A stretch of 38,667 nt of DNA from Vulcanimicrobiota bacterium (lineage in GTDB: Bacteria > Vulcanimicrobiota > Vulcanimicrobiia > Vulcanimicrobiales > Vulcanimicrobiaceae), in assembly GCA_019240755.1 (NCBI GenBank), contig JAFAXS010000093.1, positions 1 to 38,667 of the forward strand, given 5' to 3'. Made by a program: the position numbers and the translations under genes. Under the pieces are notes generated by a model, which saw nothing but the letters and a program-made list of their open reading frames with translations, was not told the DNA's origin and ran no database searches. The stretch's first letter is position 1. Each line of letters starts with the position of its first letter. Shown piece by piece: positions 1,635 to 25,340 of this stretch.

Positions 1635-1758
1635 ACAAACGCTCCTTTTGTTACGCAGTAGAGTCCGTCGGGGGAGGGCCAAGTATTACACCCGCGGAGA
1701 GCCGCACCTGCTTGCTACGGGTCGGAAGGGAGGGCGCTCGGGGACGCGGCATGTCCTT

Positions 1759-4583: not shown

Positions 4584-5945
4584 CTATTGGTCATCTGGAA
4601 TTCGGTAATCCTCGCTCTGGGTCAGGAAGAATTGCCGGTCGCGCGGCGCGTCGATCGGCACGAACTTGCGCGGTTTGCGGCCGAAGTCGAAGCAGTCGGC
4701 GGCCGGCGATGTGGCGCGCGCGTCCGCGGCCGCGAGCTGACCTAGGCCGAACAAGTCTTCGGCGAAACGCAAGACGCTCGCGGTCTCGTACTGCACGTGC
4801 GAGACGTAGTCGTGCTTCGCGTAAGGCGAGATCGCGAGCAGCGGAACGCGGAAGCCCAAGCCGTCGTAATCGGCAAACGGCGGCTTCACCGGGTCGTAGA
4901 GGCCACCCCAATCGTCCCACTGCACGAAGACGACGCTGCTGTTCCAGAATTTGCTTTCACCCACCGCGTTGACCAGCGCCGCGACCCACGAGGGTCCGAA
5001 GCCGCCGCCGCAGTTGACGTGATCGGAGTTCTTGCAGACGGGCGTGATCCAGGTGAAGTTGGCGAGCCGCCCGTGCGCGATGTCTTTGAAGAAGCGGGTC
5101 TGCGGCGTGATCACGTCTTTCTTCCAGTCGGGCCCTTCGTAGATGTGTTTTACGGCTTGGTAGCTCGACCATACGGCGCCGAAGCCGCTGCTCTTCGTGT
5201 GGTACCAGCTCGAGTAGAAGCGCCATGTGAGTCCGGCCTTGTCGAGCTCGTCGCCCAACGTCTGGTAATCGAAACATGGCGACTGAACCGGGCCATATTT
5301 GCGGTTCTGCGTGAGCGTTTGCACGAGCTCGCTTGGGCCGGGAACGCAGCCCCAGGCGCCGTATGGCAGATTCACGCTGCCCTGCGCCTGCGCCGCGATC
5401 GCGTACTGATGCGCGACGAAGCTCTCGTCGAGCTGCGACTGGAACATGCGGTCGGCGAGCACCCATTCGTGCGCCATATCGAAGTACGGCTTCGATTCTC
5501 TGTGCGGCACGTAGACGTACTGCGCGTACTTTACGCCGGGCGGCCCGAGATCCACATACTCCTTGTTGAAGCCGTTCATCCGGCAACGGGTTCCCGTCAG
5601 CCTGCCTTTTCCGTTGCACGCCGCAAACATCGCCGCCGCGGAATGGTCGATGATGTACTGGTACGCGAGGCTCACGGGTTTGAGTGCGACCGTCCTGCCG
5701 TTTGAGATCTTGCCGCTCGACACGGTATACGCGCCGGGATATCGGTAAAACAGGTTGTTGAACGACCGGTTCTCTTGGATGATGTAGATGACGTGCGCGA
5801 TCTTGCCCGCGCCGCTCTGCGGCGATGCCGTCAAAGAGACCGCGCGCGACGCGGGCATCAACGCCGCGTGCGACCCACCGGCACACCCGGCGAGTGCGAG
5901 CAACGCAAGCGCGGCGTACGACCACGCGGAACTTTGTCGGATCAT
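4584..5945 (-). CDS. Phosphoesterase (AcpA/phospholipase C family) lipoprotein
   Basis: 453 residues from ATG at 5945, with lipobox LALAGC (Cys21). Motifs match the neighbour at 1759: QENRSF (Glu58/Asn59), DESFVAHQY with the candidate nucleophile serine, NSDHVNCGGG, WDDWGGLYDPVKPP and ISPYAKHDYVSHVQYE. Long stretches are nearly identical to that paralog, so this is a recent duplication. Like it, the second metal motif has DPVKPP where DHV.PP is usual. The product is probably anchored by lipid outside the inner membrane and cleaves phosphate esters; the substrate is unknown. It diverges from the third copy at 6026, and the 80-base gap 5946-6025 must hold both promoters. I see no clear -35/-10 pair or Shine-Dalgarno there. 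Confidence 0.88.
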   Translation of the reverse strand: MIRQSSAWSYAALALLALAGCAGGSHAALMPASRAVSLTASPQSGAGKIAHVIYIIQENRSFNNLFYRYPGAYTVSSGKISNGRTVALKPVSLAYQYIIDHSAAAMFAACNGKGRLTGTRCRMNGFNKEYVDLGPPGVKYAQYVYVPHRESKPYFDMAHEWVLADRMFQSQLDESFVAHQYAIAAQAQGSVNLPYGAWGCVPGPSELVQTLTQNRKYGPVQSPCFDYQTLGDELDKAGLTWRFYSSWYHTKSSGFGAVWSSYQAVKHIYEGPDWKKDVITPQTRFFKDIAHGRLANFTWITPVCKNSDHVNCGGGFGPSWVAALVNAVGESKFWNSSVVFVQWDDWGGLYDPVKPPFADYDGLGFRVPLLAISPYAKHDYVSHVQYETASVLRFAEDLFGLGQLAAADARATSPAADCFDFGRKPRKFVPIDAPRDRQFFLTQSEDYRIPDDQ

Positions 5946-6025
5946 TGTCGCGCTCGCTTCGATGTGGCGCGAGCGCCCTCCGTCGCAGCGAAGGGTCTGC
6001 TGCGGGGTTCTGCCAACAGCCCGGC

Positions 6026-7345
6026 ATGCGCCGTTCGACTACCGCCCTTCTTCTTGCGCTTGCTGCCTGCAATGGCGGCGCAAGCGGCGGCGCGCCGGAA
6101 GCGACCAGGCCGGCGGCCGCGCGCCTGATCGCGCGCGCGGCCTCGCCGATCGCGCACGTGATCTTCGTCGTGCAAGAGAACCGCTCGTTCAACAATCTCT
6201 TCCTCGGATATCCCGGCGCGACGACGCAGAACTACGGCTACGATACGAAGGGCGACAAGATCGCGTTACAGGCGGAAGACTTGGCCACCAACTGGGACAT
6301 CGAGCACGCGTCGCGCACGTTCTTCGCCGCCTGCAACGGCCGTGGTAAGATACCCGGCACGCACTGCAGGATGAACGGATGGAACAACGAGATCGCATCC
6401 ATCGGCGCGCCGCGCAACTTCGCGTACTCCTACGTTCCCGAAAACGAGATCAAACAGTACTGGGAGATGGCGCAGCAGTACGTGCTGGCCGACAATATGT
6501 TCAGCTCGAATATCGACGGCAGCTTTATCGCCCATCAATACTCCGTCGCCGCGTATGCCGGCCATGCCGCCGATTATCCGCAGACGAACTGGGGGTGTCC
6601 TGGCGGTAAGACCGACAAGATTAATACCTTCACCGACAAACGCACGTACGGCAAGTTAATTCGCGCCTGCTTCGACATTCCGACGCTGGGCAACGAGGCC
6701 GACGCCGCGGGAGTGAGTTGGCGATACTATACGGGCTCGCTCAGCAGCACCGACGCCCTGTGGTCCGCGTATCAGGCCGACAGCCGCATCTACAAGACAC
6801 CGGACTGGACCAACGACGTCGTCAACCCGCAATCGCAGTTCCTGACCGACGTCGCCAACGGGTACTTGGCGAACATCACGTGGATCACGCCGACGCTGCA
6901 AAACTCCGACCACCCCGGGCTGCTGGCCAACGGCGGTCCGGCCTGGGTGAGTTCGATCGTCGACGCGGTCGGCAAGAGCAAGTTCTGGCAGTCCAGCGCG
7001 ATCTTCATTCTGTGGGACGACTGGGGCGGCTGGTTCGATCCCGTGAAGCCGCCCTACGTTGACTACGACGGCCTGGGCTTTCGCATTCCGCTGATCATGA
7101 TTTCACCCTACTCGCCCACCGGCCGCGTCACGCACGCGCAGTATGAAATCGCGAGCGTGCTGCGCTACATCGAAGATAACTTCGGGCTGGCGCCGATGGC
7201 CGCCGCGGACGCGCGCGCGAACGACCCGGCCGCTGACCCCGACGCGTTCAACTACGCACAGAAGGCGCGGCGATTTCACGCGTTCGACGCGCTCCGACCG
7301 CGTGCGCTTCGCTCGCGGCGCACGACGCTACTCGGCGACGACTAG
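6026..7345 (+). CDS. Phosphoesterase (AcpA/phospholipase C family) lipoprotein, divergent copy
   Basis: 439 residues from ATG at 6026. This start gives a short lipoprotein signal (LALAAC, Cys15); an upstream extension overlaps the divergent neighbour and looks non-coding. It has QENRSF (Glu51/Asn52), GSFIAHQY with the candidate nucleophile Ser, NSDHPG, WDDWGGWFDPVKPP and ISPYSPTGRVTHAQYE. It is clearly homologous to the copies at 1759 and 4584 but the most diverged of the three. For example, the Cys-Gly-Gly-Gly segment after SDH is replaced by a GLLANGG stretch, and the C-terminus is basic. The function is presumably hydrolysis of extracellular phosphate esters. It ends at a bidirectional terminator shared with the convergent gene at 7413. 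Confidence 0.88.
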   Translation: MRRSTTALLLALAACNGGASGGAPEATRPAAARLIARAASPIAHVIFVVQENRSFNNLFLGYPGATTQNYGYDTKGDKIALQAEDLATNWDIEHASRTFFAACNGRGKIPGTHCRMNGWNNEIASIGAPRNFAYSYVPENEIKQYWEMAQQYVLADNMFSSNIDGSFIAHQYSVAAYAGHAADYPQTNWGCPGGKTDKINTFTDKRTYGKLIRACFDIPTLGNEADAAGVSWRYYTGSLSSTDALWSAYQADSRIYKTPDWTNDVVNPQSQFLTDVANGYLANITWITPTLQNSDHPGLLANGGPAWVSSIVDAVGKSKFWQSSAIFILWDDWGGWFDPVKPPYVDYDGLGFRIPLIMISPYSPTGRVTHAQYEIASVLRYIEDNFGLAPMAAADARANDPAADPDAFNYAQKARRFHAFDALRPRALRSRRTTLLGDD

Positions 7346-8600: not shown

Positions 8601-9171
8601 TTACCTTTCTCGAATGGCAACTGCGCCGGTCGTCGTGCTCAGCGTAATTCGCGCGCTCCCGCTACCCAGGCGCCCCTGCGCGCTCATTCCGACGATGCTC
8701 TCGCGGCGCGTCGCGATGCTGGGGAAATCGCTCGAGATGCTGCCGACCGAGCTTGACACGTCGATCGTCGCGTCGCTATCGCGCGAAAGGGAACAGTGAA
8801 TCGAGCCGGTCGTCGCTCGCAAAACGATCGACCGCCTGAGCGCCACCTTGCCGAAGTCAGCCCTGATAGTACCCGCCTGCGTCTCGACCGAAACGTCGCC
8901 GGAAAGGCCGGCGACACTCACGCCCCCCGCATCGTTGCTCACCTCGAGCGCGACGCGGGCCGGAACGAGCAGGCGATAGCGCACGCCGCCCGTATGAAAT
9001 CCCGCCTGGTAGACGGTCGCGATGCGTAGGGAATCGCCGTTGCGTTCGATCGTAACGGCGATCGCGCGCAGCTCGTCCGCACTGTAACCGTTCTTTATTG
9101 CCTCGACGTCGAGCGTCGATTTCGGCCGCCGGAATGATCGCCAGAGCGAGCGACGCGGACAACCACCTCAC
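8601..9171 (-). pseudogene. DUF4097-like exported protein, reading frame broken by a one-base shift
   Basis: The gene opens with GTG at 9171, overlapping the alcohol dehydrogenase stop by GTGA. It codes a signal-peptide-like start (VRWLSASLALAIIPAAE) and then loses frame. From about 9119 downward another frame carries a typical DUF4097 stretch (DVEAIKNGYSADELRAIAV, VRYRLLVP, SGDVSVETQAGTI, GSIHCSLS) to a TAA at 8601. That frame has no ATG/GTG/TTG before residue VRYR and a stop right at the dehydrogenase end. Dropping one base of the TTT run at 9120-9122 joins the two into a 189-residue protein. DUF4097 proteins are repetitive beta-strand proteins of unclear role, often exported. This could be a real mutation or a sequencing/assembly error. 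It is the last gene of the long operon. Confidence 0.75.
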
Positions 9172-10166
9172 GGCAGCAGCACCGCCGCGCCGCGGAGCTC
9201 GTCGTGTTTGAGCATCGTCAGCGCTCGATTGGCCCTTTCAAGCGGCATCCCTATCGTGCTGGTTCGAATCGGAATCTCGCCCGCGATCGTCAAAAATTCT
9301 TCCCCGTCGGCGCGCGTGTTGGCCGTGACGCTGCGAATTTCACGCTCGTAGAATAGGTCGCGCTCGTAGTCGAGCGTCGGAATGGGCGACAGATAAATTC
9401 CCGCGATCGCCAGCACGCCGCCGCGCCGCAGCGAGCGCAGCGCCGGCGCGACGAGCGTGCCTGCCGGCGCGAACAGAATCGCGGCATCGAGCGGCGCGGG
9501 CGGCGCTTCGGACGCCTCGCCGATCCACTGCGCGCCTAGCTCCCGCGCGAACTCGCGATGAACGCCGCCGCGGCTCATCACGAAGACTCGGCAGCCCCAA
9601 CGCGCGAGCACTTGCAACGCCAAGTGCGCGGAGCCGCCGAATCCGTAGAGCCCAACGGTTGCGCCCGGCGCGATTCCCGCGCGCTTGATCGCGCGAAAGC
9701 CGATGATTCCCGCGCAGAGCAGCGGCGCGGCATGCTCGTCGTCGATCGCATCGGGGATTCGATACGCGTAGTCGTCGCGGACGACGGCGAACTCGGCGTA
9801 ACCGCCGTCGGCGTCCCAGCCGGTGAAGCGCGCGTTGGGACAGAGGTTCTCGCGTCCGGTCGTGCAGTACTCGCACGTGCCGTCGGTCTCGCGCAGCCAC
9901 GCGATGCCGACGCGTTCGCCCGCCTGAAAGTGCCGGCTGTGCGCTCCGCGCGCTTCGACGACGCCCACGATCTCGTGGCCGGGAACGATCGCCGGATGCT
10001 TTGGCGCGAGCTCTCCCTCGCACACGTGAAGGTCGGTGCGGCAGACGCCGCAGGCGCGAACTCTCACGAGAATTTCATTGTCGGCGGGCACGGGCCGCGG
10101 CACCTCGCACGCTTCGAGCGGATCGCTCTCGATCGGCCCCGGACGGCGCAGCACCATTGCTCTCAC
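9168..10166 (-). CDS. Zinc-dependent alcohol dehydrogenase (MDR superfamily)
   Basis: 332 residues from GTG at 10166. The N-terminal GroES-like domain has catalytic zinc ligands Cys42 (GVCRTD), His64-Glu65 (GHE) and Cys151. The structural zinc loop keeps Cys98, Cys101 and Cys109, but the first cysteine is Asp95 (DGTCEYC). A Rossmann domain follows with the dinucleotide motif YGFGGSAH near residues 175-182. The enzyme should oxidise alcohols or reduce aldehydes with NAD(P) in the cytoplasm; the family resembles the bacterial AdhA type. It starts 9 bases after the lipoprotein gene at 10176, separated by a small perfect hairpin, and its stop overlaps the next start by GTGA. It therefore sits within an operon of surface proteins, an odd place for a cytoplasmic oxidoreductase. 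Confidence 0.92.
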   Translation of the reverse strand: MRAMVLRRPGPIESDPLEACEVPRPVPADNEILVRVRACGVCRTDLHVCEGELAPKHPAIVPGHEIVGVVEARGAHSRHFQAGERVGIAWLRETDGTCEYCTTGRENLCPNARFTGWDADGGYAEFAVVRDDYAYRIPDAIDDEHAAPLLCAGIIGFRAIKRAGIAPGATVGLYGFGGSAHLALQVLARWGCRVFVMSRGGVHREFARELGAQWIGEASEAPPAPLDAAILFAPAGTLVAPALRSLRRGGVLAIAGIYLSPIPTLDYERDLFYEREIRSVTANTRADGEEFLTIAGEIPIRTSTIGMPLERANRALTMLKHDELRGAAVLLP

Positions 10167-10182
10167 GCCGTAGACTTACGGC
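10167..10182 (-). other. Perfect intercistronic hairpin between lipoprotein and dehydrogenase genes
   Basis: GCCGTA at 10167-10172 pairs with TACGGC at 10177-10182 around a 4-base loop. It fills the 9-base gap and contains the stop codon of the upstream gene. No T-tract follows. It could hide or mark the start of the dehydrogenase gene or serve as an RNA-processing site; this is inference. Confidence 0.4.
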
Positions 10183-11252
10183 GCTAAGAAGAGGTGCTCC
10201 GGTTTGAAGCTGCAGTTCGATCCGGCCGGGCACGCCAGGCTCAACGCCGGCTTCGCTCGATTCGGCAGCGGCAGGGCGTACACGTTGAGCGTTCCACGCA
10301 CCGAATCGAGCGTGTAGAGCCGCGTTCGCAGCGGATCCGCGGCCAGCGCGCCGACGATCGCATTCGTGTGCGAGTTCGGAAAGAGACCGATCTGGGGGTT
10401 GAGCGGCAGCAAGAACTCGCCGAGCACGTTGACGGGCGGCGGCGGCGGCGAACCGGGCGGCGGCGAGGAAAGCTGGCCAAAATACTGCCCAACGATTAGG
10501 GAAGGCTGCACGGGCGCGGTCGGCGACCACTGGCTCGAATCGATGAAGTTCGCTTGATTCAAGTTGAGGCCCGTCGTTCCGGGCGGCCGCGCATAGGGAA
10601 AGCCGATCTTGAACAACAGCCCGCGCGTTGATGAGAGCGCATAGACGTAGAGCGTCGAGTTGATGTCGAAGCGCCCTTGCACGAGCGTCGTGAAGCCGGC
10701 CGTCTTCGAGCCGGGAGCGCCGAACTGCAGTGAGAGCGCCGCGATGCTCGACGGCGACAACGGCGCGCGCAGCTCGGAGATTCCGGCGCCGAGGTTATTG
10801 AAGAGCCAGAGGTCGCCGTTCGGATCGTACTCGAGGTCTACGAGGTCCGCGCCGTTCACCCCGACTTGCGTGATCGCCGGAGTTAGGGTAATCGCCGTTC
10901 TCGCGTGCGATTTCGCAAACGAGCGAATCGGCGGATAGAAGATGCGGATGCTCTTCGGGCTCGCGAGCGCGACCCGGCCGGTAAAGCTATCCACCGTGAC
11001 GGCGGGTGCAAGCCCAAGCCCGGGCCACTCATTCCAGCTGTGCACCGGCTTCGATGCGGCGCGCAAAGGCAGCGCGTACTCGTAGAGCACGCCGTTATGG
11101 TCGGCGTAGAGGCGTTTCGCGGGCGCGGGCGTGGCGGTCGGCGGCGGCACCCCTACCCCCGGCGCGGGTCCGCTGGCGACGCCGCATCCTCCGATCGCAA
11201 GGGCGACGGCGAGCGCTCCGATCGCTACGGCGAGATAGGAGCAGGCTTTCAT
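10176..11252 (-). CDS. Predicted lipoprotein, propeller-like, in TonB-receptor operon
   Basis: 358 residues from ATG at 11252, whose ATGA overlaps the stop of the upstream gene. The signal ends AIGGC (Cys23), followed by a Pro/Thr/Ala linker. The body has blade-like blocks (RLYADHNGVLYEYALPL, DLVDLEYDPNGDLWLFNN, ALAADPLRTRLYTLD, GTLNVYALPLP), suggesting a beta-propeller exposed at the cell surface or in the periplasm. A Pro-rich stretch (SSPPPGSPPPPP) interrupts one loop near residue 268. No enzyme motif is seen. Position five in the receptor operon and translational coupling imply that it is made in step with the receptor. The function is unknown; a ligand-binding accessory lipoprotein is a guess. 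Confidence 0.8.
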   Translation of the reverse strand: MKACSYLAVAIGALAVALAIGGCGVASGPAPGVGVPPPTATPAPAKRLYADHNGVLYEYALPLRAASKPVHSWNEWPGLGLAPAVTVDSFTGRVALASPKSIRIFYPPIRSFAKSHARTAITLTPAITQVGVNGADLVDLEYDPNGDLWLFNNLGAGISELRAPLSPSSIAALSLQFGAPGSKTAGFTTLVQGRFDINSTLYVYALSSTRGLLFKIGFPYARPPGTTGLNLNQANFIDSSQWSPTAPVQPSLIVGQYFGQLSSPPPGSPPPPPVNVLGEFLLPLNPQIGLFPNSHTNAIVGALAADPLRTRLYTLDSVRGTLNVYALPLPNRAKPALSLACPAGSNCSFKPEHLFLAP

Positions 11253-11998
11253 TGATCGAGGCTCCCGAAGACCGGCGCGACGCTGGCGTACTTCCGATCG
11301 AAGAGAAATAGCGACAGCCGGCCGATCCGGTGAAACGGCAAAACATTGTGTGCATCGAACGGATCGATCTGCGCCGGCGTCAGGGTGCCGATCGGTGCGT
11401 TCGCGGGCCCAACGAAACCGCCGAAGTTCGCGACGTGTCCACCGATGCCGACCGTTACGACGTTGCCGAGATGCGCGCTCCCGAGCGGTTTGAAGTTCGA
11501 GTGGTTCGACGCGGTAAAGCTCCCGAAGTCCGCCGTTGCAACCGCGGGCGAGGCTTCGTAGAACGACAGCTGCGCGCCGCTCGTGCTCTTCGGTTCCCCG
11601 AAGGCGAGAACGCGATAGTTCGGATACGCGCCGACGACGATCAACGTGTACCGGCTCCCAGCGGTCAGCGACGGCGTCTTGAGCGGCCCAACGGCATACC
11701 CGAGCTGATCGCGCGCAACCAGCGAGTGGGCGCCCGCGGCAACCCCGAGGAACGGCGTCAGCGTGCCGTAGGAAAACTGCGATGCAACCGTCGCGCCGTC
11801 CATCTGGAGATATGCCGTCCCAATGTCCTGCGGCACGCCGTTGATGAGCGTTTCAAGCAACGGCGCGCCGTCGGCAAAGCGCACTCGCGCACCGCCCTGC
11901 TGTGCCGGCAGCGCGCCGGACGGCGCAGCATTCGATCCGCCGCACGCGGATAACGCGAACGCACAAGCTAAAACCGCGCGCGGGAGGAACATATTCAC
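11249..11998 (-). CDS. DUF4397-like lipoprotein
   Basis: 249 residues from GTG at 11998 (GTGA overlap with the previous stop). The lipobox is ALSAC (Cys19). The mature part follows the DUF4397 pattern: ARVRFADGAPLLETLINGV, then a segment ending FLGVAAGAHSLVARD, then a TAGSRYTLIVVG block. This is an Ig-like fold family of surface proteins with unknown role. The C-terminal half (TADFGSFTASNHSNF, HVANFGGFVGPANAPIG) is not recognisable to me. It is translationally coupled both upstream (11995) and downstream (11252) within the receptor operon. Confidence 0.75.
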   Translation of the reverse strand: MNMFLPRAVLACAFALSACGGSNAAPSGALPAQQGGARVRFADGAPLLETLINGVPQDIGTAYLQMDGATVASQFSYGTLTPFLGVAAGAHSLVARDQLGYAVGPLKTPSLTAGSRYTLIVVGAYPNYRVLAFGEPKSTSGAQLSFYEASPAVATADFGSFTASNHSNFKPLGSAHLGNVVTVGIGGHVANFGGFVGPANAPIGTLTPAQIDPFDAHNVLPFHRIGRLSLFLFDRKYASVAPVFGSLDQ

Positions 11999-13893
11999 TT
12001 AGCGGAGAGCGCGAGCGCGACGGGCGCGTGGAGTTGCGTCGCCGAGCCGGCGATCTGCACCGAGGGCTTCACGTTGCCGTGCGCGCTTGCGGTAAACGCG
12101 TCGATCGCGTCGTTGATATCGTCGGCGGCGAACAGCGACGACGAGTAGAGCGCGATTGCAGGAAAGTAGTTGACGAGCGGATTCGAGTAACAGGCGCCTT
12201 TGGTCACGACGCCCTCGAGCGTCAGAACGCGCTGCGGCGGCACGTCGGTCGTCCCGCCGCCGGCCCCGGCCGCATAGACGTTCACCCGCGCCTGACACGG
12301 AGCGTTGCTACCACTGCCGACTTTCATCCATGCACCGACGAACGGCTCGCCGCTCTTATCGAGCGCGACGTTCGTGGTCGAGCCGGGCTGAAGTTGCGTC
12401 GTGGAATCCCACGGTATCGTTCGCGCCGGAACCGTCTGCGGATTGCCGATGTCGGCGGCGGACGCCACGTACGTCCCGTACTGCGTTTGCAGGATCGTGT
12501 GCAGGCCGCCGTTGACGTAGAAGTTGTTACTCGAGTCAATCGCCAAGCCGGTGGGAACGGACGCCGCGTAATCGAGCGTCGGCGCAAAGTCGAAGCCGTA
12601 CTCCGGCGTCGCCGGCCCCGAGCTGCCCGCTGCGTAGGTCAACACCGCATCGCCCGTATTTCCGTCAACGCTCGTGCCGCCGAACGTCACGATGCGACCG
12701 CTCGGATCGAACGTGATGAAGACCGGGAAGAGCGCCGTGTTCGTCGTTGAATCGGCGGTGATCACCGCCGTGGGCGGCGTATTTCCGGCCGCGCCCGGGG
12801 CGTATACGGCGATCTCGTTGCCGGCGTCGGGAGCGCCCGTCCCGGGATTATATCCGAGGCTATTATCGGTATAGCCCACGTAGAGGTTTCCCGTCGAGTC
12901 CACCGCGATCGTGCGCGCGTAGAGCTTCGCGTCGAGCGACAGCGTGCGCTCGGGCGAAGCGTTTCCTTTCGCGGTTCCGGCATACTCGGTGACCACCGCC
13001 GCCTGGCCGCCCTTGGTGCCGAGGTTCAACGCGTAGATCGTGCCGACCGGAGGGGGCGGCATCTTCCCGTGCAACGCGAAGGGAGCGCTGCCGCCGACCG
13101 ACCCGTAGCCGGTGACGCTCGCGCTCAGCGTGATCGACAGCGCTTGCGGATTGCCGTCGTAGTGCAGCGCGATGCCCGACGTCGGCTTGACGATGGACAG
13201 CGACGAGCCCGACTTTCCTCCGGCGTGCAGCGAGAACGCATGCATGTTATCGCCCTGAATCGCGAGCGCAATGGGTGAGGCGTAGTCGCTGGGGCCCACG
13301 ATCTGCGCGCCGCTCGCATCGAACGCGGCCAGCGAGACGGCGGCGCTCGCCGGCTTGCCGCGCTTGGCGCCTTTCGGCGCGACCGAAAGCTTGAGCGATG
13401 CGACGATGCCGTTGAGGCTCAACAGCAAGTTGTCGATCTGAACCTCGCTGTTCGATCCAACCTTGGCCGCGACGTCGCCGACCGAGAGAACCGCGCCGTT
13501 CGCATTCGTTTGGGTAAAGGTCGTCACCGCAAAGACGTCGTCGCCGGGCGACCCCGACGCGGTCGCGGTGCAGACGAGCGCGTTCGCCTCGGTCGAGCAG
13601 CCGCGCGCGTGCGCCACCGTGTCGATCGTCGTGGGATTGACGCCGCCGACGCCTTGTCCGTTGACCGACGACAACTGGATCGCCAATGACTTCGTGTTGA
13701 CCGACACGTAGTTCGGACCGATGCCGTGGCTCCGTAGCGGCACTGTGACCGTCACTTTGACGGCGACGAGCTTGGGCGGCGGCTGCCCCGGGCCGCCGGG
13801 AGAGTTCACGACGGAGCCGTTGGGCAGCGAACTCCCGCCGCCGCACGCGGACAACGCAACTGCGGCGATAATCGCGCTCCAGCGCAGTTTCAC
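11995..13893 (-). CDS. Large lipoprotein: N-terminal beta-rich region plus C-terminal propeller
   Basis: 632 residues from GTG at 13893, overlapping the upstream stop by GTGA. The signal ends VALSAC (Cys17), then a Gly/Pro-rich linker. Residues about 45-290 look like beta-sandwich (Ig-like) repeats. From about 295 on, blade-like blocks recur (TIAVDSTGNLYVGY, EIAVYAPGAAG, FITFDPSGRIVTFG, GLAIDSSNNFYVNG, NVALDKSGEPFVG), typical of NHL/SMP-30-type propellers. Such propellers often bind ligands or partner proteins rather than catalyse. It is the largest of the four lipoproteins that follow the TonB-dependent receptor. No enzyme motif is visible and its function is unknown. Confidence 0.82.
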   Translation of the reverse strand: MKLRWSAIIAAVALSACGGGSSLPNGSVVNSPGGPGQPPPKLVAVKVTVTVPLRSHGIGPNYVSVNTKSLAIQLSSVNGQGVGGVNPTTIDTVAHARGCSTEANALVCTATASGSPGDDVFAVTTFTQTNANGAVLSVGDVAAKVGSNSEVQIDNLLLSLNGIVASLKLSVAPKGAKRGKPASAAVSLAAFDASGAQIVGPSDYASPIALAIQGDNMHAFSLHAGGKSGSSLSIVKPTSGIALHYDGNPQALSITLSASVTGYGSVGGSAPFALHGKMPPPPVGTIYALNLGTKGGQAAVVTEYAGTAKGNASPERTLSLDAKLYARTIAVDSTGNLYVGYTDNSLGYNPGTGAPDAGNEIAVYAPGAAGNTPPTAVITADSTTNTALFPVFITFDPSGRIVTFGGTSVDGNTGDAVLTYAAGSSGPATPEYGFDFAPTLDYAASVPTGLAIDSSNNFYVNGGLHTILQTQYGTYVASAADIGNPQTVPARTIPWDSTTQLQPGSTTNVALDKSGEPFVGAWMKVGSGSNAPCQARVNVYAAGAGGGTTDVPPQRVLTLEGVVTKGACYSNPLVNYFPAIALYSSSLFAADDINDAIDAFTASAHGNVKPSVQIAGSATQLHAPVALALSAK

Positions 13894-15095
13894 GGGTACG
13901 TCCCGTTGAGAAGATCGGACGTCGTCACGTCGGCCTGCCCGTTTGCGCCTCGGAGCACCGGCAGTTGCGAAAGATTGCCGGGATACGACGCCTCGTACGC
14001 CGGATAGTTCACGCCGGCCGCATAGATCTGATACGACTCCTGCGGACAGATCGTCGGCGTCTTCTTTCCGGTGCCCGTTAGCGGTCCCAGATCGTCGGCG
14101 AGCGCCAGATCTTGCGCGCCGCTATGATGGGTGACGAGCGTGTAGTAGCTGTCGCTCGCATGCGATTGCACGCAGACGCCGCTGCCGCTGCCGCCCACGG
14201 CGCGCACGACGACCATCGCTTCCGTCGCGCCGAAAGGAACGCTGACCCCCACGCGGCCGCCGCCGTTTCGATCGGCCGTAAACGTCGGCGTCGAGAACGA
14301 CGGCAACGGATGCAGGCGCGAGAGCTCGGCGCCCGCCGCTAAAATTCCGGGCGCCGGCGTCGGCGTCGCTTGCGGATTGGGGCTCGGCGTGGGATTCTGC
14401 GGCGTGTCGAACGCCGGTGGAACGGCGGCGTAGAGATGGTACGTTCCGACCGCCGGCTGCACCGCGAAGTCGGTAAAGCCGAGGGAGTAGCCCTCCCAGC
14501 CCAACGCGCGAACGCTCGGGCCCGCTGCGGGGAACGCCGGCGGCCCGCCGTACCATCGTTCCAGATATCCGTCCTCGCCGTACACCGGAAGCAGATATGC
14601 TTGATAGAGCGGCGAGAACCCGTTCGCCGGCCCCGAGTCGGAGTTGCAGGGGCACAGCCCGTAACCGAACGCACCGCTCGTCGAGGCTTTGAAGCCGCGC
14701 GGCGCACCGGTCCACTTCGACTGGTTGAGGGTGCCCCAGGTGATGTGATTCGTTCCGAGATCGGCGCCGGCCGAAAGCACTTGGCTTCCGGTCTCCGTCG
14801 AGATCAGTACGTCGAAGGAGGTCGGGCCGATGATCATCGGCACGTCGTAGAGCACGCCGGAGAGGCCGTCTTTTTGACGCAGCGTCTCCACCGTATTGAG
14901 CCCGTACGCCACCTTCGCGCCGCCCGCAAACGTCAGCGTTGCGACTCCGACGGCGAACTGCAGTTTGCTCGTCGCCGCGGGATCGAGCGACGTGACCGTC
15001 GGCTCGGATGCGCCGCCGTTGCCGCACGCGACGAGGGCCGCGCAGAACGAGACGACCGCCGCGGCCGTGAGAGCTTGGAAAACACGTACGTTCAT
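13890..15095 (-). CDS. Unrecognised lipoprotein directly coupled to the TonB-dependent receptor
   Basis: 401 residues from ATG at 15095; the ATGA overlaps the receptor stop. The lipobox is ALVAC (Cys24). I do not recognise the family. There are two regions joined by a Pro/Thr-rich linker (TPSPNPQATPTPAPG, about residues 233-247). The first contains a tight LCPCNSDSG loop and many aromatic residues (QAYLLPVYGEDGYLERWYG). The second contains single Cys residues that could pair (GVCVQS, TICPQES). It occupies the slot next to the receptor that SusD holds in SusCD pairs, but I see no SusD or TPR-like helical sequence; the protein looks beta-rich. A role as receptor lid or ligand-capture lipoprotein is inference from position only. 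Confidence 0.8.
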   Translation of the reverse strand: MNVRVFQALTAAAVVSFCAALVACGNGGASEPTVTSLDPAATSKLQFAVGVATLTFAGGAKVAYGLNTVETLRQKDGLSGVLYDVPMIIGPTSFDVLISTETGSQVLSAGADLGTNHITWGTLNQSKWTGAPRGFKASTSGAFGYGLCPCNSDSGPANGFSPLYQAYLLPVYGEDGYLERWYGGPPAFPAAGPSVRALGWEGYSLGFTDFAVQPAVGTYHLYAAVPPAFDTPQNPTPSPNPQATPTPAPGILAAGAELSRLHPLPSFSTPTFTADRNGGGRVGVSVPFGATEAMVVVRAVGGSGSGVCVQSHASDSYYTLVTHHSGAQDLALADDLGPLTGTGKKTPTICPQESYQIYAAGVNYPAYEASYPGNLSQLPVLRGANGQADVTTSDLLNGTYP

Positions 15096-18000
15096 ATCGT
15101 CACCTGGTAGTAGAAGCGAAACGAAATCGGGGGCTCGTTCGGAAACGTCAGGTACGGCGACGAGCTATGGGCCGCAATATCCGGCGGGGCGTACGGCGCA
15201 GTCGAATATGTGCAGGGCGCCGTGCCGCTTTGCAATCCGGTCGTCACCGGCGCGCCGTAGCAGCCGTTGTAGACGGGCACGTTATACAACTGATTGAATA
15301 GGTTCTGGATCTGCACTCCGAAGACGGAATGAGCGAGAAGGCCGCGCGTCGGCGGCCGGTACTCGACGGTGAGATCGGTGTCGACGCGCGGCGTCGTGAG
15401 CAAGCCGCCGGCCAGGCCCGGCTCGTGAATTCCGCGAGTCGCTGCGATGTTCGGTTTGGTGCACGTGCCGGGATCGAGCGGGTCGATGTAACCGGGGGTC
15501 TGCGAGTAGATCACCCCGAGGCTGGTGCTCGGCACGATCACCGGAATGCCGTTACAGTAAACGGCGGTGTAGTAGCCCGCGCCGTACGGGTAGCCGGCGT
15601 TGATCGCGAAGACGGGATTGATCCGCCAGCCGTTCTTGTTCTTGTAGTTGAACGCGGCGTTTAGCTGAAACGGCGAAAGGTCGGGCGATCGGTAGGTCAC
15701 GCCCAGCGCCAGCGCCGCCGGTTGCAAAAACGTGCCGGGCGGCTCGTTTCCGAACTGACTGATGTAGGTAGCGCCCACCTGCATCGAAAGTCCGATCGGC
15801 ACTTCCTTGGTGTAGAGGGCCTCGATTCCGCTGGCCTTTTGTATGCCGAGGTTCGAGTACGAAACGTCGCCGAAGATCGGCGAGCCCGTCTGATAGTTGT
15901 ACCCGACGATCTGCGCGGTCTGCTCGACGACGTTGTAGCCGCGCCGGTAGAACGGCGTGATCTTCATCGCCGAGCCGTCCCGAAACTCGTGCGCCCACGA
16001 GAGGTCGATGTTCGTAAAGGTCGCGCCGACGAGCGGAGCCTCCAGCGTCGAGCTCCCGAAGCGATAGTCGCGCGTCAGCCAGTACAACTGATCGGCGTAA
16101 CTGGCGCAGAGCTGGTTCGCATGGGCGCCGCAGTACGTCGCGGGTTTACCGGTCGAATTGTCGTACGACGGAATACTTTGAAACGGGGCGTACGGCGCGC
16201 GGCTGACGTCGGCGCCCAGTAGGCTCGGCAACGGCATCGAAAGCGTATGCCCGAAGCCGATCCGGAACGTATCGCGCGGGTCGGGAGAGTACGATTGGTC
16301 GATGTGCGGCTCGTACAGTCGTTGGTGCTGCACTCCGGGAATCGAGGGCGGCGCCCCGGCCTGCGTCGGAATCTGAAAGTTGTAGCCGTCTAAGCGCAGG
16401 CCAACCTCGCTCTTGAGGCGATTCGACCATTCGATCGTATCTTGCGCGTACCAGCCGTACTGTTGTTGCGAGACAGTTGAAACGTCTTCCTCGAACGGAA
16501 AGCGAACGCCGCCGGGAAAGTACGACGAGAGGTATCCGCAGTTGCCGCGGAGGTTGATCTGCGCGCAGAACGCCGGCGAAAAGAAGTCCTGCTCCAACGC
16601 GCCCGCGTTTTGCGCGGCCGGATTGTTGTTCGGCAACAGACCGTTGTACGTGTACGGCAACGGTAAGGGTTGGAACGGGTGCGTGATCGCATAGGTCACG
16701 ATGTAGGGCGGCGTCGTGAACGCGGTATACGACGTGAAGTCGTAGCGGTTGCCGTAGGGCACGACGAACTGATAGATCCCGCCGTACCGCAGCAAATGCT
16801 TCGTGCCGAGCTGCGTCGTTCCGTCGATCTGGCCGCCCGTGCGCGATCCCCCATAGGGATCGGCGAAGATTCCCTGGGCCGGCATGTCCTGCGACTGGTC
16901 TGCCCAGGTGCGGAAGTATCGCGCGGTCAGCAACGACGACGAGCCCAGGCTGATCCCGTATTCCCCCTTGTACGCCAGGAAAGGGCTCTTGAGCTGATCC
17001 GGCTGGGAAACGAACGCATAGGTGTTCGGCTGTCCCGGAAAAAGCGGTATCAAGTTATCGCAGGCATAGTTCTGCTGGACGCTGTTGACCGGTCCGTTCG
17101 GACCCACCACGACGTACGGCGCGCACTTGCCGGCCTGCGTTCCGCCGGAAATATACGGAAGAAACTGAAATCCCCCGTAATCGAGCGTCTGCGTGATCGC
17201 CTGATCTTGAATGAAGAACTGCAGCCGCTGATTGTTGTTGCGCCCGAAGCGGTAGATCGCGTTGTCGACGAAGTCGTTCGATTTCAAGAAGGACGGCGCG
17301 TAGTAGACGAGGTTGGGGTCGATCGTACTGCCGAGCGTTGCCGCGTTGGTGCCGAGCGTTCCCAGCGTGTTGGCGGCGGTGCCGGGAATCCCGTACTGGT
17401 AGTTGCGGCGGATGCCCAGAAACCCCGCGTAGTTGGAGAACCGCTGCGACGGATCTGCCCAGCCCCACTCCAACCCTAACTGATGGAGGTAGGGAAAGAG
17501 CTGCGATTCGACGTCGGCATGAAAGTAGGTGGGGTACGTCCCGTGCTTGGCGGTGAAAAGCACGAGGCCCGTTCCGGTGTTGCCGTGCGTCGCGTCGCCG
17601 CCGCCCGGAATCAGTTGGACGCTGCCGACGCCGTTGAGCAAGTTGAAGTTGGCGACGTTCTGCAGCGTGTTCTGCAAGTTAGCCGAGGGCGTGGTGTAGT
17701 CGATGCCTTCGAACTCGTACGCCGCCTCGAATGCGAAGCCGCCGCGGATGGACACCGTGCCGGTCTTATCGATCGTGATGCTGGGGATGCTGCGCAGTAG
17801 ATCCTTCTCGTTTGAGTTGAACGCCTTGCCCATCACGGTATCGATCTGCGAGCCGGTAACGCTATACGTATCGATCGTCATGCCGCGTTGGAAGGCGCTT
17901 CCCGCCGAGCGCGCGTGCGTCACGGCGATCGTTCGGAGCGAGCGCGAGAGCGGAACGTTGACGGTCTGCTGCGAGCCGTTGAGCACGACGATGGCGGTGG

Positions 18001-18283
18001 AATACGGCGCGTAGTCGCTACGCGAGAACGAGAGCGAGTAGTTGTCCGGCAGGACGCTCAGGAACCGGAAGCGCCCCTGCGCGTCGGTCGTCTCGCGATA
18101 CCTCGCGCTCGGAGATTTGGCAACGACCGCCACGCCCGCGAGCGGCGCGTGCGTCCGGTCGTCCGTGACGGTTCCTACGACGACGCCCGCCGTCTCGGCG
18201 AGGGCGACGCCCTGGACGGCCACGATTAACCACGCGGCCGCGGCGACCGCGACCCTTCCGGCGCGAAGGAACGACTCGAGCAA
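15092..18283 (-). CDS. TonB-dependent outer-membrane receptor with carboxypeptidase-regulatory domain (Oar-like)
   Basis: About 1063 residues. I place the start at TTG 18283 because GGGGGG lies 5 bases before it and a signal peptide follows at once (cleavage near ALA-ET). ATG at 18334 is the alternative. Order: signal peptide; carboxypeptidase-regulatory-like domain (GTVTDDRTHAPLAGVAVVAK); plug domain (DLLRSIPSITIDKTGTVSIRGG, then VQLIPGGGDATHGNTG); and a long beta-barrel rich in Tyr/Phe/Gly. The last strand ends SFRFYYQVTI, so the final residue is Ile, not the usual aromatic. In the family such receptors import or bind large substrates using TonB energy. It heads a seven-gene operon with four lipoproteins coupled behind it. 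The substrate is unknown. Confidence 0.9.
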   Translation of the reverse strand: MLESFLRAGRVAVAAAAWLIVAVQGVALAETAGVVVGTVTDDRTHAPLAGVAVVAKSPSARYRETTDAQGRFRFLSVLPDNYSLSFSRSDYAPYSTAIVVLNGSQQTVNVPLSRSLRTIAVTHARSAGSAFQRGMTIDTYSVTGSQIDTVMGKAFNSNEKDLLRSIPSITIDKTGTVSIRGGFAFEAAYEFEGIDYTTPSANLQNTLQNVANFNLLNGVGSVQLIPGGGDATHGNTGTGLVLFTAKHGTYPTYFHADVESQLFPYLHQLGLEWGWADPSQRFSNYAGFLGIRRNYQYGIPGTAANTLGTLGTNAATLGSTIDPNLVYYAPSFLKSNDFVDNAIYRFGRNNNQRLQFFIQDQAITQTLDYGGFQFLPYISGGTQAGKCAPYVVVGPNGPVNSVQQNYACDNLIPLFPGQPNTYAFVSQPDQLKSPFLAYKGEYGISLGSSSLLTARYFRTWADQSQDMPAQGIFADPYGGSRTGGQIDGTTQLGTKHLLRYGGIYQFVVPYGNRYDFTSYTAFTTPPYIVTYAITHPFQPLPLPYTYNGLLPNNNPAAQNAGALEQDFFSPAFCAQINLRGNCGYLSSYFPGGVRFPFEEDVSTVSQQQYGWYAQDTIEWSNRLKSEVGLRLDGYNFQIPTQAGAPPSIPGVQHQRLYEPHIDQSYSPDPRDTFRIGFGHTLSMPLPSLLGADVSRAPYAPFQSIPSYDNSTGKPATYCGAHANQLCASYADQLYWLTRDYRFGSSTLEAPLVGATFTNIDLSWAHEFRDGSAMKITPFYRRGYNVVEQTAQIVGYNYQTGSPIFGDVSYSNLGIQKASGIEALYTKEVPIGLSMQVGATYISQFGNEPPGTFLQPAALALGVTYRSPDLSPFQLNAAFNYKNKNGWRINPVFAINAGYPYGAGYYTAVYCNGIPVIVPSTSLGVIYSQTPGYIDPLDPGTCTKPNIAATRGIHEPGLAGGLLTTPRVDTDLTVEYRPPTRGLLAHSVFGVQIQNLFNQLYNVPVYNGCYGAPVTTGLQSGTAPCTYSTAPYAPPDIAAHSSSPYLTFPNEPPISFRFYYQVTI

Positions 18284-18433: not shown

Positions 18434-18469
18434 GGTTGCGCGCACCGCAGTGCGGCGGTGCGCGCAACC
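18434..18469 (-). terminator. Long GC-rich hairpin after pstS
   Basis: GGTTGCGCGCACCGC (18434-18448) is perfectly complementary to 18455-18469, giving a 15-bp stem 12 bases after the pstS stop. No T-run follows on the minus strand (ATAAAACAAAAAG). It may stop transcription without a U-tract, or protect the pstS mRNA 3' end. Confidence 0.55.
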
Positions 18470-20120: not shown

Positions 20121-20140
20121 AAGAAACTTGAAGAAACCTT
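20121..20140. repeat. Tandem 10-bp repeat AAGAAACYTK
   Basis: AAGAAACTTG is followed directly by AAGAAACCTT, two 10-base units on one helical face. They lie in the gap upstream of pstS and touch the stop of the regulator gene. The tandem form resembles a response-regulator binding site, such as a Pho box, but neither the sequence nor the 11-base period of known Pho boxes fits. Confidence 0.3.
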
Positions 20141-21311
20141 AATCTTCGGGCAACGCGCGCGTGTCGGCGATCTGCCAGCGCGAGCGCAGACCCAAGCGCC
20201 CCAGAATCGAGCTCACGTGACGCTCGACCGTGTGCTCGCTGATCTGTAACGCGGACGCGATCTCGCGATTGCGCGCCCCGCGCCGAATTAAGTTTGCGAT
20301 CTGTTCCTCGCGTTGCGTCAGCGTCGAGCGTGGTTTTCCTCGCGGCCGGCACGGACCGCCGGTGTGGCGTACCAGAAGCGCCATCGCCTCGTCTGCGTAG
20401 CGGCGCAGCCCCATCGCGCTGAACGCGCGCGCCGCGTCGCCCGCATTTTCCGTGCACGCCGTATATTGGGCCGTGCGAAAAGCAAGGTACGCGCGGGCCA
20501 AAAGACGATGGGCTCGCAGGTAACTGCGTTCGGGACAGACGCAGCCTTCGAAGAGGCGCAACGCATAACGCGCATCGTCAACATCGCCATACCGGGCGGC
20601 AACCGTGAAGAATTCCGGGACGTTCTGCGCGTCGGTCACCGCGAGCAGTGCTCGGCGCAACGCGATCGCACTGCTTTCATCCGGGCCATTCTGCGCGGTC
20701 GCGATCAGGAGCGCCGCAGTGGCGGCCGTAGCCTCGTTCAGTCGCGGACTGTGCAGCGCGGCTTCAATTATCGGCGGACCGCTCCAACGCCGCAACGACG
20801 CCGCGTCGCCGCGTTCCAGCGCGATCGCCACTCCGACCGGCGCGCATGCGATCGGGAGTCGCGCAACGTCGTGAAAATGCGCCTTCCGGAGTAAGTCCTC
20901 GGCGGCGCCAAGATCGCCTTTCGCCAAGGCGATGCGAGCCGCCGTCGCAATCGTCTCGAGTATCGCTTGAGTGACGCGGTGCTCCGAAGCGATCGCTACC
21001 GCATCGCCCGCGGCGCCGGCAGCGACGGCCACGTCGCCGAAGAGCAGCGCGTGGTGCGCCAGCCGTTCCAGCGCCGCCGCCGCCAGCGCGAAACGCCGCT
21101 CCGCTACGGCACCGGCGGAAGCCCGGCGGAATAACTCATAGGCGCGGCTCGAGTCGCCCGACCAGGTCAGCACCACGGCCGCGACGAGGTCCGCTGCGCC
21201 GTTGCCGGCGACAAGTTCTAACGCATCGAAGCGCAGCAGCTTCGGAGCGACCACCGTAGCGAGGGCGCGTTCTTCACCCCGTGCGGCATAGGCGACTTGC
21301 TCCTCGCTCAT
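20139..21311 (-). CDS. LuxR-type transcriptional regulator with helical N-terminal region
   Basis: 390 residues from ATG at 21311. The C-terminal 60 residues form a LuxR/NarL helix-turn-helix: TQREEQIANLIRRGARN, then EIASALQISEHTVERHVSSI and LGRLGLRSRWQIAD. The first 320 residues are Ala/Leu-rich and helical, like the TPR/MalT-type repeats of large LuxR regulators. No P-loop ATPase and no receiver domain Asp are seen, so it resembles the C-terminal half of a MalT/LAL-type regulator standing alone. DNA binding is likely; the signal is unknown. It is transcribed in the same direction as pstS, ending 196 bases upstream of it, and could regulate it or the receptor operon. Confidence 0.88.
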   Translation of the reverse strand: MSEEQVAYAARGEERALATVVAPKLLRFDALELVAGNGAADLVAAVVLTWSGDSSRAYELFRRASAGAVAERRFALAAAALERLAHHALLFGDVAVAAGAAGDAVAIASEHRVTQAILETIATAARIALAKGDLGAAEDLLRKAHFHDVARLPIACAPVGVAIALERGDAASLRRWSGPPIIEAALHSPRLNEATAATAALLIATAQNGPDESSAIALRRALLAVTDAQNVPEFFTVAARYGDVDDARYALRLFEGCVCPERSYLRAHRLLARAYLAFRTAQYTACTENAGDAARAFSAMGLRRYADEAMALLVRHTGGPCRPRGKPRSTLTQREEQIANLIRRGARNREIASALQISEHTVERHVSSILGRLGLRSRWQIADTRALPED

Positions 21312-21372
21312 TGCGCCGCCAATGCTAGCAAGCCGAGGTTAAGCGCGCATTACGAACCTGTCAGAAAATGCT

Positions 21373-21398
21373 AAGGGCGCGCCGTGCGGCGCGCCCTT
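21373..21398 (-). terminator. Terminator hairpin after propeller lipoprotein gene
   Basis: AAGGGCGCGCCG and its perfect complement flank a 2-base centre (a practical loop of about 6). On the minus strand it is followed by AGCATTTTCTG. It ends the transcript of the gene at 21423-22463. Confidence 0.7.
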
Positions 21399-21422: not shown

Positions 21423-22463
21423 CTACGGTTTGAACTTGTAGGTCGCGACGCCGTACGGGAGCGACAGGCCGTTGGACGAGTTGAGGGTCGTCACCAGCGA
21501 GTCATTGGTGTAGTTGAGGACGTAGACTTCAGCCGTGCCCGCGTCGGCGATGAACAAGTACTCCCACGTTCCATTCGGGTTCTTCGTGTTGCGCCCCGTC
21601 AGCGCGTCGTGGAAGTAATCGCTGCCGCCCGGTACCGTGATCGTCTTGCTGATCGAGGTGTACGGCGGCGGGATGATGTCGATGCCGGCCAGCTGATCGC
21701 ACACGACCAGAGCGCCGGTGTTGTCGATCGTGATTCCGCCGGCGAAGGTCAACGTCGGCGTGAGGGTCGTCCAGCTGCAGCTCGCGAGGCCGCCCGGAGC
21801 GAACTCATAGATGTTGCCGGTGCCGCCGGAGTTGTTGCCGGTCACGAAGAGGTCGCCGGTCTTGTCGACGATGAGGCCCTCGTTCGCGAGGTTCGTGTTG
21901 CAGCTCGCGGTCGGCGTGTTCGTCATCGGCGGATACTCGACGACGTTGGCGCTCCCTGCGGAGCCGTAGTTGGCAACGTACACGTTGCCGGAGCTGTCGG
22001 TGGTCACGTCGACCGGGTCCGTCAGGCCGCTGTTATACGTGTAGAGCAACGTTCCGGTTTGATCGTATTCATCAACCGCGAGCGACGCGTAGTCGGCAAC
22101 GTAGATGTTGCCGGCCGGATCGATCCAAATTCCATCTCCGTACGAGTTGGAGAACGATCCCATGTTTCCGAAGGTGCGGTTGAACTGCACGACCTCGTTG
22201 AGGCCCGCATCGGAGACCGCGAGCTCTTTGAAGCGCCGTGGCCGCGCCGGCACATGTTTCGCGTGCCGCGCGTGGATCTTCGAGAAAACGGCCGGGTCGA
22301 TGCCGGTGCGCCACAGCATCGAGCCGTGGGCCTGCGTCTGCATCGTGCTCCCGCCGCCCGGCACGCTCGATTGCGTGCCGGAGGCCCCGTTACCCGAGCA
22401 GGCGGCCAATAACGCGGCGCCGCCGACTAAGGCCAGGGTAAAGAGTGCTGACTTGGTTCGCAA
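21423..22463 (-). CDS. NHL/SMP-30-like propeller lipoprotein
   Basis: 346 residues. TTG at 22463 is chosen because AAGGAG stands 6 bases before it and a lipoprotein signal follows (LLAAC, Cys22); the longer reading to 22583 has no signal. Blade-like blocks recur: LAVSDAGLNEVVQFNR, GIWIDPAGNIYVADY, DPVDVTTDSSGNVYVANYG, GLIVDKTGDLFVTGN, GITIDNTGALVVCDQ, YLFIADAGTAEVYVL. It is a close paralog of the gene at 22626, which precedes it in the same direction across a 162-base gap. No catalytic residues are evident. It is likely a surface or periplasmic binding protein; the ligand is unknown. Confidence 0.83.
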   Translation of the reverse strand: MRTKSALFTLALVGGAALLAACSGNGASGTQSSVPGGGSTMQTQAHGSMLWRTGIDPAVFSKIHARHAKHVPARPRRFKELAVSDAGLNEVVQFNRTFGNMGSFSNSYGDGIWIDPAGNIYVADYASLAVDEYDQTGTLLYTYNSGLTDPVDVTTDSSGNVYVANYGSAGSANVVEYPPMTNTPTASCNTNLANEGLIVDKTGDLFVTGNNSGGTGNIYEFAPGGLASCSWTTLTPTLTFAGGITIDNTGALVVCDQLAGIDIIPPPYTSISKTITVPGGSDYFHDALTGRNTKNPNGTWEYLFIADAGTAEVYVLNYTNDSLVTTLNSSNGLSLPYGVATYKFKP

Positions 22464-22625
22464 AGCATTCTCCTTACACGAGTGAGAGGTGGCAAAGGCG
22501 CCCCGAATCGACGGGACTCGAGCCGGGTGCGCAAACTGGGAAAAGGAACGGCGTCGGTATTTTTGTACCGGTATGGGCGTCACCTTCCGCCTCTGAATTA
22601 GAGATTGAGACGTTACTAGTTGGTA

Positions 22626-24607: not shown

Positions 24608-24655
24608 GTAGGGGCCCCTCCTGACAGCAGCTATTTGCTTCGCAGCACGCGGTCG

Positions 24656-24683
24656 TTTGCCTTCGATGCGTTTGCGGTAGAAC
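24656..24683 (+). promoter_or_regulatory. Predicted promoter of ppa, leaderless type
   Basis: TTTGCC at 24656-24661 and TAGAAC at 24678-24683 are 16 bases apart. The GTG start lies 7 bases after the -10, about where transcription should begin, and no Shine-Dalgarno is present. It is inferred from spacing only. Confidence 0.45.
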
Positions 24684-24690
24684 GCACTAC

Positions 24691-25263: not shown

Positions 25264-25340
25264 CGCAGTAGCGGGAAACCCCCGGGCCGCCTCAAAACGT
25301 AGCGTTTCTTAGCCCTTCCCTGAGAGCCTTGGAGGTCTTC

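Follow-up and report, generated by a model that had tools for sequence, protein, structure and literature searches.

A TonB-dependent receptor and lipoprotein operon with Pho-box-like promoters: a putative phosphorus acquisition system of Eremiobacterota

Introduction

In Flavobacterium, the phosphate-starvation-induced PUS loci encode PusCD, a TonB-dependent transporter with a surface lipoprotein, and these systems are thought to be importers of organic phosphorus (PMC8115612). In Caulobacter, the surface lipoprotein ElpS (CC0170) and the TonB-dependent receptor (TBDT) CC0171 form a phosphate-starvation pair, for which the authors suggest phosphate mobilisation (PMC2996285). The relatives of ElpS in Flavobacterium were modelled as polygalacturonase-like (PMC8115612), and several TBDTs are under PhoB control in Caulobacter (PMC11208175). 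In addition, BtuB-BtuG is an example of a TBDT capped by a propeller lipoprotein (PMC10404256). In this study, we analysed by computation a gene cluster in a 38,667-nucleotide stretch of DNA (the window, taken at its full length), which is contig C43 (JAFAXS010000093.1) of a 2.59-Mb metagenome-assembled genome (MAG). All of the cluster genes lie on the minus strand, and they run from a LuxR-type regulator gene through a PstS-type lipoprotein gene, a TBDT gene and four lipoprotein genes (LP1 to LP4) to an alcohol dehydrogenase (ADH) gene and a DUF4097 gene (Table 1). Phosphorus acquisition is suggested by the PstS protein together with promoters that resemble Pho boxes. We consider it fairly probable that the cluster is a Pho-regulated, phosphate-starvation-induced outer-membrane phosphorus acquisition system of Eremiobacterota, an uncultured phylum with members in soil, and we infer its transport and its substrate.

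In its probable function, the cluster comes closest to PusCD and ElpS/CC0171. It resembles PusCD in that a TBDT is joined with a putative surface lipoprotein, and the starvation induction seen in Flavobacterium has its counterpart in the pst-type repeats of the cluster. However, PusD belongs to the SusD family and PUS loci contain phosphatases, whereas the cluster is without SusD, has LP1 as the partner and co-encodes a PstS-type lipoprotein. The ElpS/CC0171 pair also unites a surface lipoprotein with a TBDT and has a phosphate-starvation link, but it is linked to type II secretion system genes and includes no PstS, and LP1 is set apart from ElpS by description. The cluster PstS has its fold family and its phosphate-contact residues in common with the PstS of PstSCAB. 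Nevertheless, it is a lipoprotein of 486 amino acids with insertions, and its gene lies with that of a TBDT, apart from pstCAB. BtuB-BtuG likewise combines a TBDT with a beta-propeller surface lipoprotein, which is a lid in that system, but the cluster has no B12 genes and its invariant partner is neither LP2 nor LP4, the two propellers. Finally, Oar-type TBDTs have the same receptor domain order with CarboxypepD_reg, but the cluster clade is fixed to LP1 and carries pst-type promoter repeats. No description of a PstS-TBDT locus or of Eremiobacterota TBDTs was found in the literature searched, which left most subscription journals outside its reach.

Results

The receptor and LP1 form an invariant pair

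Gene order was compared in 20 fetched related loci (L numbers), and the TBDT-LP1 pairing was counted over about 38 Eremiobacterota loci. The TBDT directly followed by LP1 was a fixed unit in these loci, and the two genes were adjacent down to about 30% identity. In addition, their 4-base overlap recurred in 14 of the 20 related loci across the class. The sole LP1 without a nearby receptor, on a contig with sequence to spare, was a frame-broken second copy (L089). Thus, the receptor and LP1 are an invariant pair. A preliminary description of this DNA had proposed to look for the same gene order in relatives, and there the TBDT and LP1 were not apart, being adjacent even at 30-40% identity. Nearly all of the named records with the same LP1 gene are Candidatus Eremiobacterota MAGs. 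The TBDT orthologues are 75-85% identical in the genus and family and 40-47% in the class, and the same genome encodes about 10 further related receptors without LP1 pairing.

Some observations concern the copies of the cluster. The near-complete genome G010 holds two of them (C1 1926000-1945500, L066, and 2161000-2180500, L065), and the second copy has the order LP2, PstS, LP3, LP4, TBDT, LP1. Contigs of other MAGs (L102, L103, L117 and L107) end inside LP1, at query residues 334-342, as would happen if duplication of the cluster broke the assembly. L100 (G033:C83) has a back-to-back arrangement of two divergently transcribed TBDT-LP1 pairs. Meanwhile, the Rhodospirillales-labelled L106 (JANYGA010000005.1) and L109 (CAJCIN010000300.1) carry the locus and match G024 and G032 of the window's family; the NCBI names of both look wrong.

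Coupling and borders of the operon

The TBDT and LP1 are joined by an ATGA overlap (15092-15095), LP1 and LP2 by GTGA (13890-13893), LP2 and LP3 by GTGA (11995-11998), and LP3 and LP4 by ATGA (11249-11252). The LP3/LP4 overlap was present in all eight loci of the genus and family in which both ends are intact. Because this overlap and that of TBDT/LP1 recur in related loci, the overlap pattern exceeds chance. The preliminary description gave the TBDT and lipoprotein genes with correct coordinates, saw their translational overlaps, and listed five exact 4-base overlaps and a sixth junction with a 9-base gap. The gap, between LP4 and ADH, and the four overlaps of intact genes were found as described. 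The fifth overlap, GTGA at 9168-9171, is present, but it is not the start of DUF4097: its GTG opens an open reading frame (ORF) of 104 amino acids in another frame, with a start that looks like a signal peptide. From 8601 to about 9164, the DUF4097 body runs in a frame other than that of this ORF, and it is without the lipoprotein N-terminus that the intact relatives L059 and L060 have. Thus, the window's copy of DUF4097 has either decayed or been misassembled.

The operon itself is confirmed, with other borders and another meaning than in the first reading. The order in the genus and nearest family is LuxR, TBDT, LP1, LP2, PstS-like lipoprotein, LP3, LP4, and the PstS-like gene instead has its place between LuxR and TBDT in the window as well as in L069 and L087. 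Promoter comparison showed that the block preceding the TBDT in relatives is the block preceding the PstS-like gene in the window; therefore, the PstS-like gene has moved within the operon. LuxR is directly upstream of the TBDT, or of the PstS-like gene and then the TBDT, in at least 12 relatives. LP2 is core in the members of the genus and nearest family, and LP3 and LP4 are core in the genus. In the distant class and family loci L070-L074, the PstS-like gene lies divergently beside the TBDT, and a PstS-type gene is again beside the TBDT in L109. The seven-gene membership proposed earlier, which included ADH and DUF4097 and missed the PstS-type lipoprotein and LuxR, has to be redrawn. The PstS-type lipoprotein gene and the LuxR gene belong to the unit, whose 5′ side had been cut short. 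ADH was found at the same place in two relatives only, and DUF4097 is variable, being found in several. Both were rejected as members of the system since their position is not conserved in relatives; ADH, DUF4097 and LP5 are peripheral to it.

Pho-box-like repeats at the cluster promoters

PhoB/PhoP boxes typically have a direct repeat with a period of 11 bp. In 10 genomes of the genus, the pstS promoters could be aligned on CTTAAC-N5-GTTAAT, which is TTAA every 11 bp. Furthermore, TTAA-N7-TTAA was found before pstS in 9 of 12 class members and in 1 of 8 other genomes, in some with three half-sites. The exact form is rare (2-11 per genome of about 3 Mb; 0-2 for the strict form), yet seven distant loci have it 65-166 bp upstream of their LP1-paired TBDT. 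Seven of the eight exact N7 sites in the loci lie at LuxR, TBDT or PstS promoters, and there are almost none of other spacings.

A position weight matrix (PWM) was built from 23 pstS sites only. Scores of 10 bits or more were obtained upstream of 14 of 26 LP1-paired TBDTs and, in the same group, upstream of 3 of 29 TBDTs without this pairing (P = 6e-4, with four duplicate loci removed by hand). With the period of 11, 28 of 34 loci had their overall best site at a promoter of LuxR, TBDT or PstS, where 1.5 would be expected by length; the loci of one genus are not independent in this count, and the distant loci carry the result too. Other repeat periods, searched as a control for AT-rich promoters, placed the best site at these promoters in 4-10 of the 34 loci. 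The best PWM site of the 38.7-kb window is the one before the PstS-like gene, and none of 400 dinucleotide shuffles reached its score. The second-best site (21338-21354, 12.9 bits) lies just before LuxR; it overlaps the third of the raw scan (10.7 bits), and the two were merged into one. There is no exact Pho box at the cluster in the window's genus, where the degenerate site is shown only by the 11-bp-period PWM. Judged from its sequence, the pst-type 11-bp repeat at the cluster promoters would count as a Pho box.

One could suppose that not PhoB but another regulator reads this repeat and that the cluster is a lipoprotein operon for starvation or envelope stress in general. It would agree with this that PhoB is a putative reader and that several of the lipoproteins are without a ligand assignment. 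However, the motif comes from pstS promoters only, and almost no other places in whole genomes have it, and we think this explanation is very improbable.

The PstS-type lipoprotein and the phosphoesterases

The PstS-like protein matched the TIGR00975 PstS model at 2e-21 with 76 bits, under the curated equivalog cut-off of 205, and thus it is a divergent paralogue. A single-sequence search gave a match to PDB PstS3 at 4.7e-9; profile-based PDB matches to E. coli PstS were biased, since that sequence was inside the profile. Its phosphate site is intact: D149, R248, D250, S252, G253 and T254 are invariant among relatives in the alignment, in which the motif SD...RxDxSGT is plain. We take these residues to be the equivalents of D56, R135, D137, S139, G140 and T141 of E. 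coli PstS, and this naming of the positions is provisional. The cluster PstS is encoded apart from pstCAB, and it is an extra PstS because the genome has its own PstS-PstC-PstA locus on contig C89. A second PstS-like lipoprotein, 58% identical, is encoded at G000:C101:15544-16971 (L111 9539-11101). Its gene is solitary, with neighbours of the housekeeping type (glycine dehydrogenase-like ORFs, for example), and no Pho-box site was found near it.

A Pho-regulated TBDT made at phosphate shortage might also serve for a metal, a siderophore or a metal-phosphate complex (Fe- or lanthanide-phosphate). Metal chelates are the classic cargo of TBDTs, and the availability of phosphate and that of metals are linked in soils; lanthanide phosphate minerals have been discussed (PMC10875860). 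However, the cluster contains no genes for siderophores, metal binding or metal ABC transport, and the co-conserved binder is of the PstS type with its phosphate site intact. Thus, a metal cargo seems quite unlikely to us.

Phosphoesterases of PF04185 (acid phosphatase/phospholipase C type) number 48-59 per genome in the genus (G000, G002, G004 and G010) and 6 in a family relative, and matches were found in only 2 of 14 control genomes. The window holds three of these genes, at 1183-3108 (plus strand), 4584-5945 (minus strand) and 5825-7345 (plus strand). They were rejected as functional partners of the cluster, since proximity is expected by chance at such numbers. The expansion itself may mark an organic-phosphorus lifestyle.

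The receptor and its lipoproteins

The receptor had been described as Oar-like, and its CarboxypepD_reg domain agrees with this. Besides this domain, the Pfam scan gave only a weak generic barrel, and no SusC/RagA-type model was found in the NCBIfam scan. The TBDT start codon is TTG, preceded by GGGGGG. Each of LP1, LP2, LP3 and LP4 has a lipobox. No SusD Pfam match was found among the window lipoproteins, and the 33 members of LP1 gave no SusD or other meaningful Pfam match, with one marginal match to a short lipoprotein motif. A PDB sequence search was tried for the structures of the receptor and LP1, and it gave no usable relative. The first LP1 model (20 sequences; predicted local distance difference test, pLDDT, 62) was replaced by an AlphaFold2 model from 33 sequences (pLDDT 76; predicted template modelling score, pTM, 0.78). 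This model is largely beta except for the signal helix, and its PDB structure matches were mainly Ig/FN3 domains with no SusD among them. In both models, the matches were to Ig/FN3-type domains only, with a TM to query of about 0.2 or less and no whole-fold assignment. SusD is mainly helical, and the predicted fold of LP1 is Ig/FN3-like and non-SusD. The earlier idea of a conserved receptor and lipoprotein machine without SusD is supported by these results.

Uptake of glycans or peptides in the manner of SusCD, with LP1 replacing SusD, would make phosphate irrelevant and the PstS-like protein a passenger. The TBDT with its coupled lipoprotein and propeller lipoproteins does resemble SusCD, BtuB-BtuG and pairs related to these, and the PstS-like gene was not found beside TBDT-LP1 in L075-L078. 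However, the operon proteins gave no SusD, SusC-type NCBIfam or CAZyme model, and pst-type repeats are found even at promoters without a PstS neighbour (L077, L078 and L095). We therefore regard such an uptake system as unlikely.

A sensing role had been suggested as well. The LuxR gene heads the core operon, as would suit a FecA-like surface sensor that signals via the TBDT to LuxR. Nevertheless, the TBDT is without the STN signalling domain (no PF07660 match in the Pfam scan), LuxR has no membrane or receiver domain match in Pfam and NCBIfam, there is no sigma/anti-sigma pair, and distant TBDT-LP1 pairs have no adjacent LuxR on the same strand. The suggestion was not supported, and we give a sensor the least credence of all these explanations.

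Other features of the window

The stem-loop directly 3′ of the PstS-like gene has a 6-base loop and is without a T-tract, and the 122-nucleotide stretch with it folds at -58.6 kcal/mol (z -7.4). It is a possible mRNA stabiliser or attenuator, and it could be a stabiliser like the repetitive extragenic palindromic (REP) elements that sets the expression of PstS above that of the TBDT. Upstream of LuxR, genes at 21423-26879 encode further propeller proteins, of the NHL and Kelch types, and a protein with a copper amine oxidase N-terminal domain; an intrinsic terminator-like site (21373-21398) separates these genes from LuxR.

Table 1. Positions and supporting matches of the cluster features in the window
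Feature	Position	Strand	Evidence
Pho-box-like 11-bp-period repeat upstream of LuxR, CGTAATGCGCGCTTAAC then CTTAACCTCGGCTTGCT	21327..21354	-	12.9 + 10.7 bits
LuxR-type transcription regulator, C-terminal GerE HTH	20139..21311	-	Pfam GerE 3e-14
Pho-box-like site ATTAAGGTTTCTTCAAG in conserved promoter block before PstS-like gene	20127..20143	-	PWM 15.4 bits
PstS-type phosphate-binding lipoprotein, 486 aa	18482..19942	-	PBP_like_2 1.8e-9
Stem-loop between PstS-like gene and TBDT	18434..18469	-	perfect 15-bp stem
TBDT, N-terminal CarboxypepD_reg domain (Oar-like)	15092..18283	-	PF13620 9.5e-15, PF00593 weak
LP1, partner lipoprotein without Pfam family	13890..15095	-	predicted Ig/FN3-like C-terminal sandwich
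LP2, lipoprotein with NHL/SBBP beta-propeller part	11995..13893	-	PF06739 1.6e-4, PF01436 1e-3
LP3, DUF4397 lipoprotein	11249..11998	-	PF14344 2.9e-8
LP4, lipoprotein, probably beta-propeller	10176..11252	-	family profile vs designed propeller 6f0t, E 0.001
ADH, Zn alcohol dehydrogenase family 2, peripheral passenger	9168..10166	-	TIGR02822 3.5e-135
Decayed DUF4097 lipoprotein gene, peripheral	8601..9171	-	PF13349 4e-8

Discussion

If the cluster is a Pho-regulated phosphorus acquisition system, phosphate starvation would act through PhoB on the TTAA direct repeats and switch on LuxR and the PstS/TBDT/LP1-LP4 operon, with LuxR probably as a second control layer. The TBDT, powered by ExbBD/TonB, would import a phosphate-bearing compound; ExbD is present in the genome. 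LP1, kept at a fixed stoichiometry by translational coupling, would be a surface lid or ligand-capture partner in complex with the receptor, in the place of SusD but without its fold. Meanwhile, the PstS-type lipoprotein would bind phosphate at the outer membrane or in the periplasm and hand it over to the separate PstCAB, which would carry it across the inner membrane. LP2, LP3 and LP4 may be accessory surface binding modules that extend ligand capture. Of this scheme, the computation shows the conserved order of the genes, their coupling, the intact phosphate site and the pst-type repeats at the promoters, and the remaining parts are predicted.

Some results weigh against this interpretation. 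No phosphatase is fixed in the operon, and the nearby PF04185 genes mean little given about 50 per genome. The PstS-like gene was not found beside TBDT-LP1 in about half of the distant loci (e.g., L075-L078), and thus PstS is not obligatory. In addition, the repeat is degenerate in the window's own genus (TTAA-N7-T[CG]AA), the genus and family loci L065, L069 and L090 have no good site before the TBDT, and the control TBDTs also score in 3 of 29 cases. Furthermore, it is the pst promoters that suggest PhoB as the reader of the repeat, and expression, PhoB binding, transport and the outer-membrane placement of the lipoproteins are all predictions from sequence.

A more specific form of the phosphorus acquisition system can be imagined, in which a PstS-type protein is relocated to the outer membrane and makes up, together with the Ig-like LP1, the ligand-capture lid of a TonB-dependent importer, with PstS passing phosphate to the TBDT. 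We find this form doubtful, though with some appreciable chance. If true, the surface handover from PstS to the TBDT would be an active outer-membrane capture of phosphate, whereas other bacteria use porins and a periplasmic PstS.

Phosphorus is scarce in soil and peat, which are the source of many of the Eremiobacterota genomes compared here. With a TBDT that is linked to a Pho box and has a PstS-type lipoprotein and a partner other than SusD, the known range of outer-membrane import under phosphate starvation would reach beyond Bacteroidota and Proteobacteria. In addition, such a system would give a likely function to the unnamed LP1 lipoprotein family, and it raises the question of whether PstS can work with a TonB-dependent receptor.

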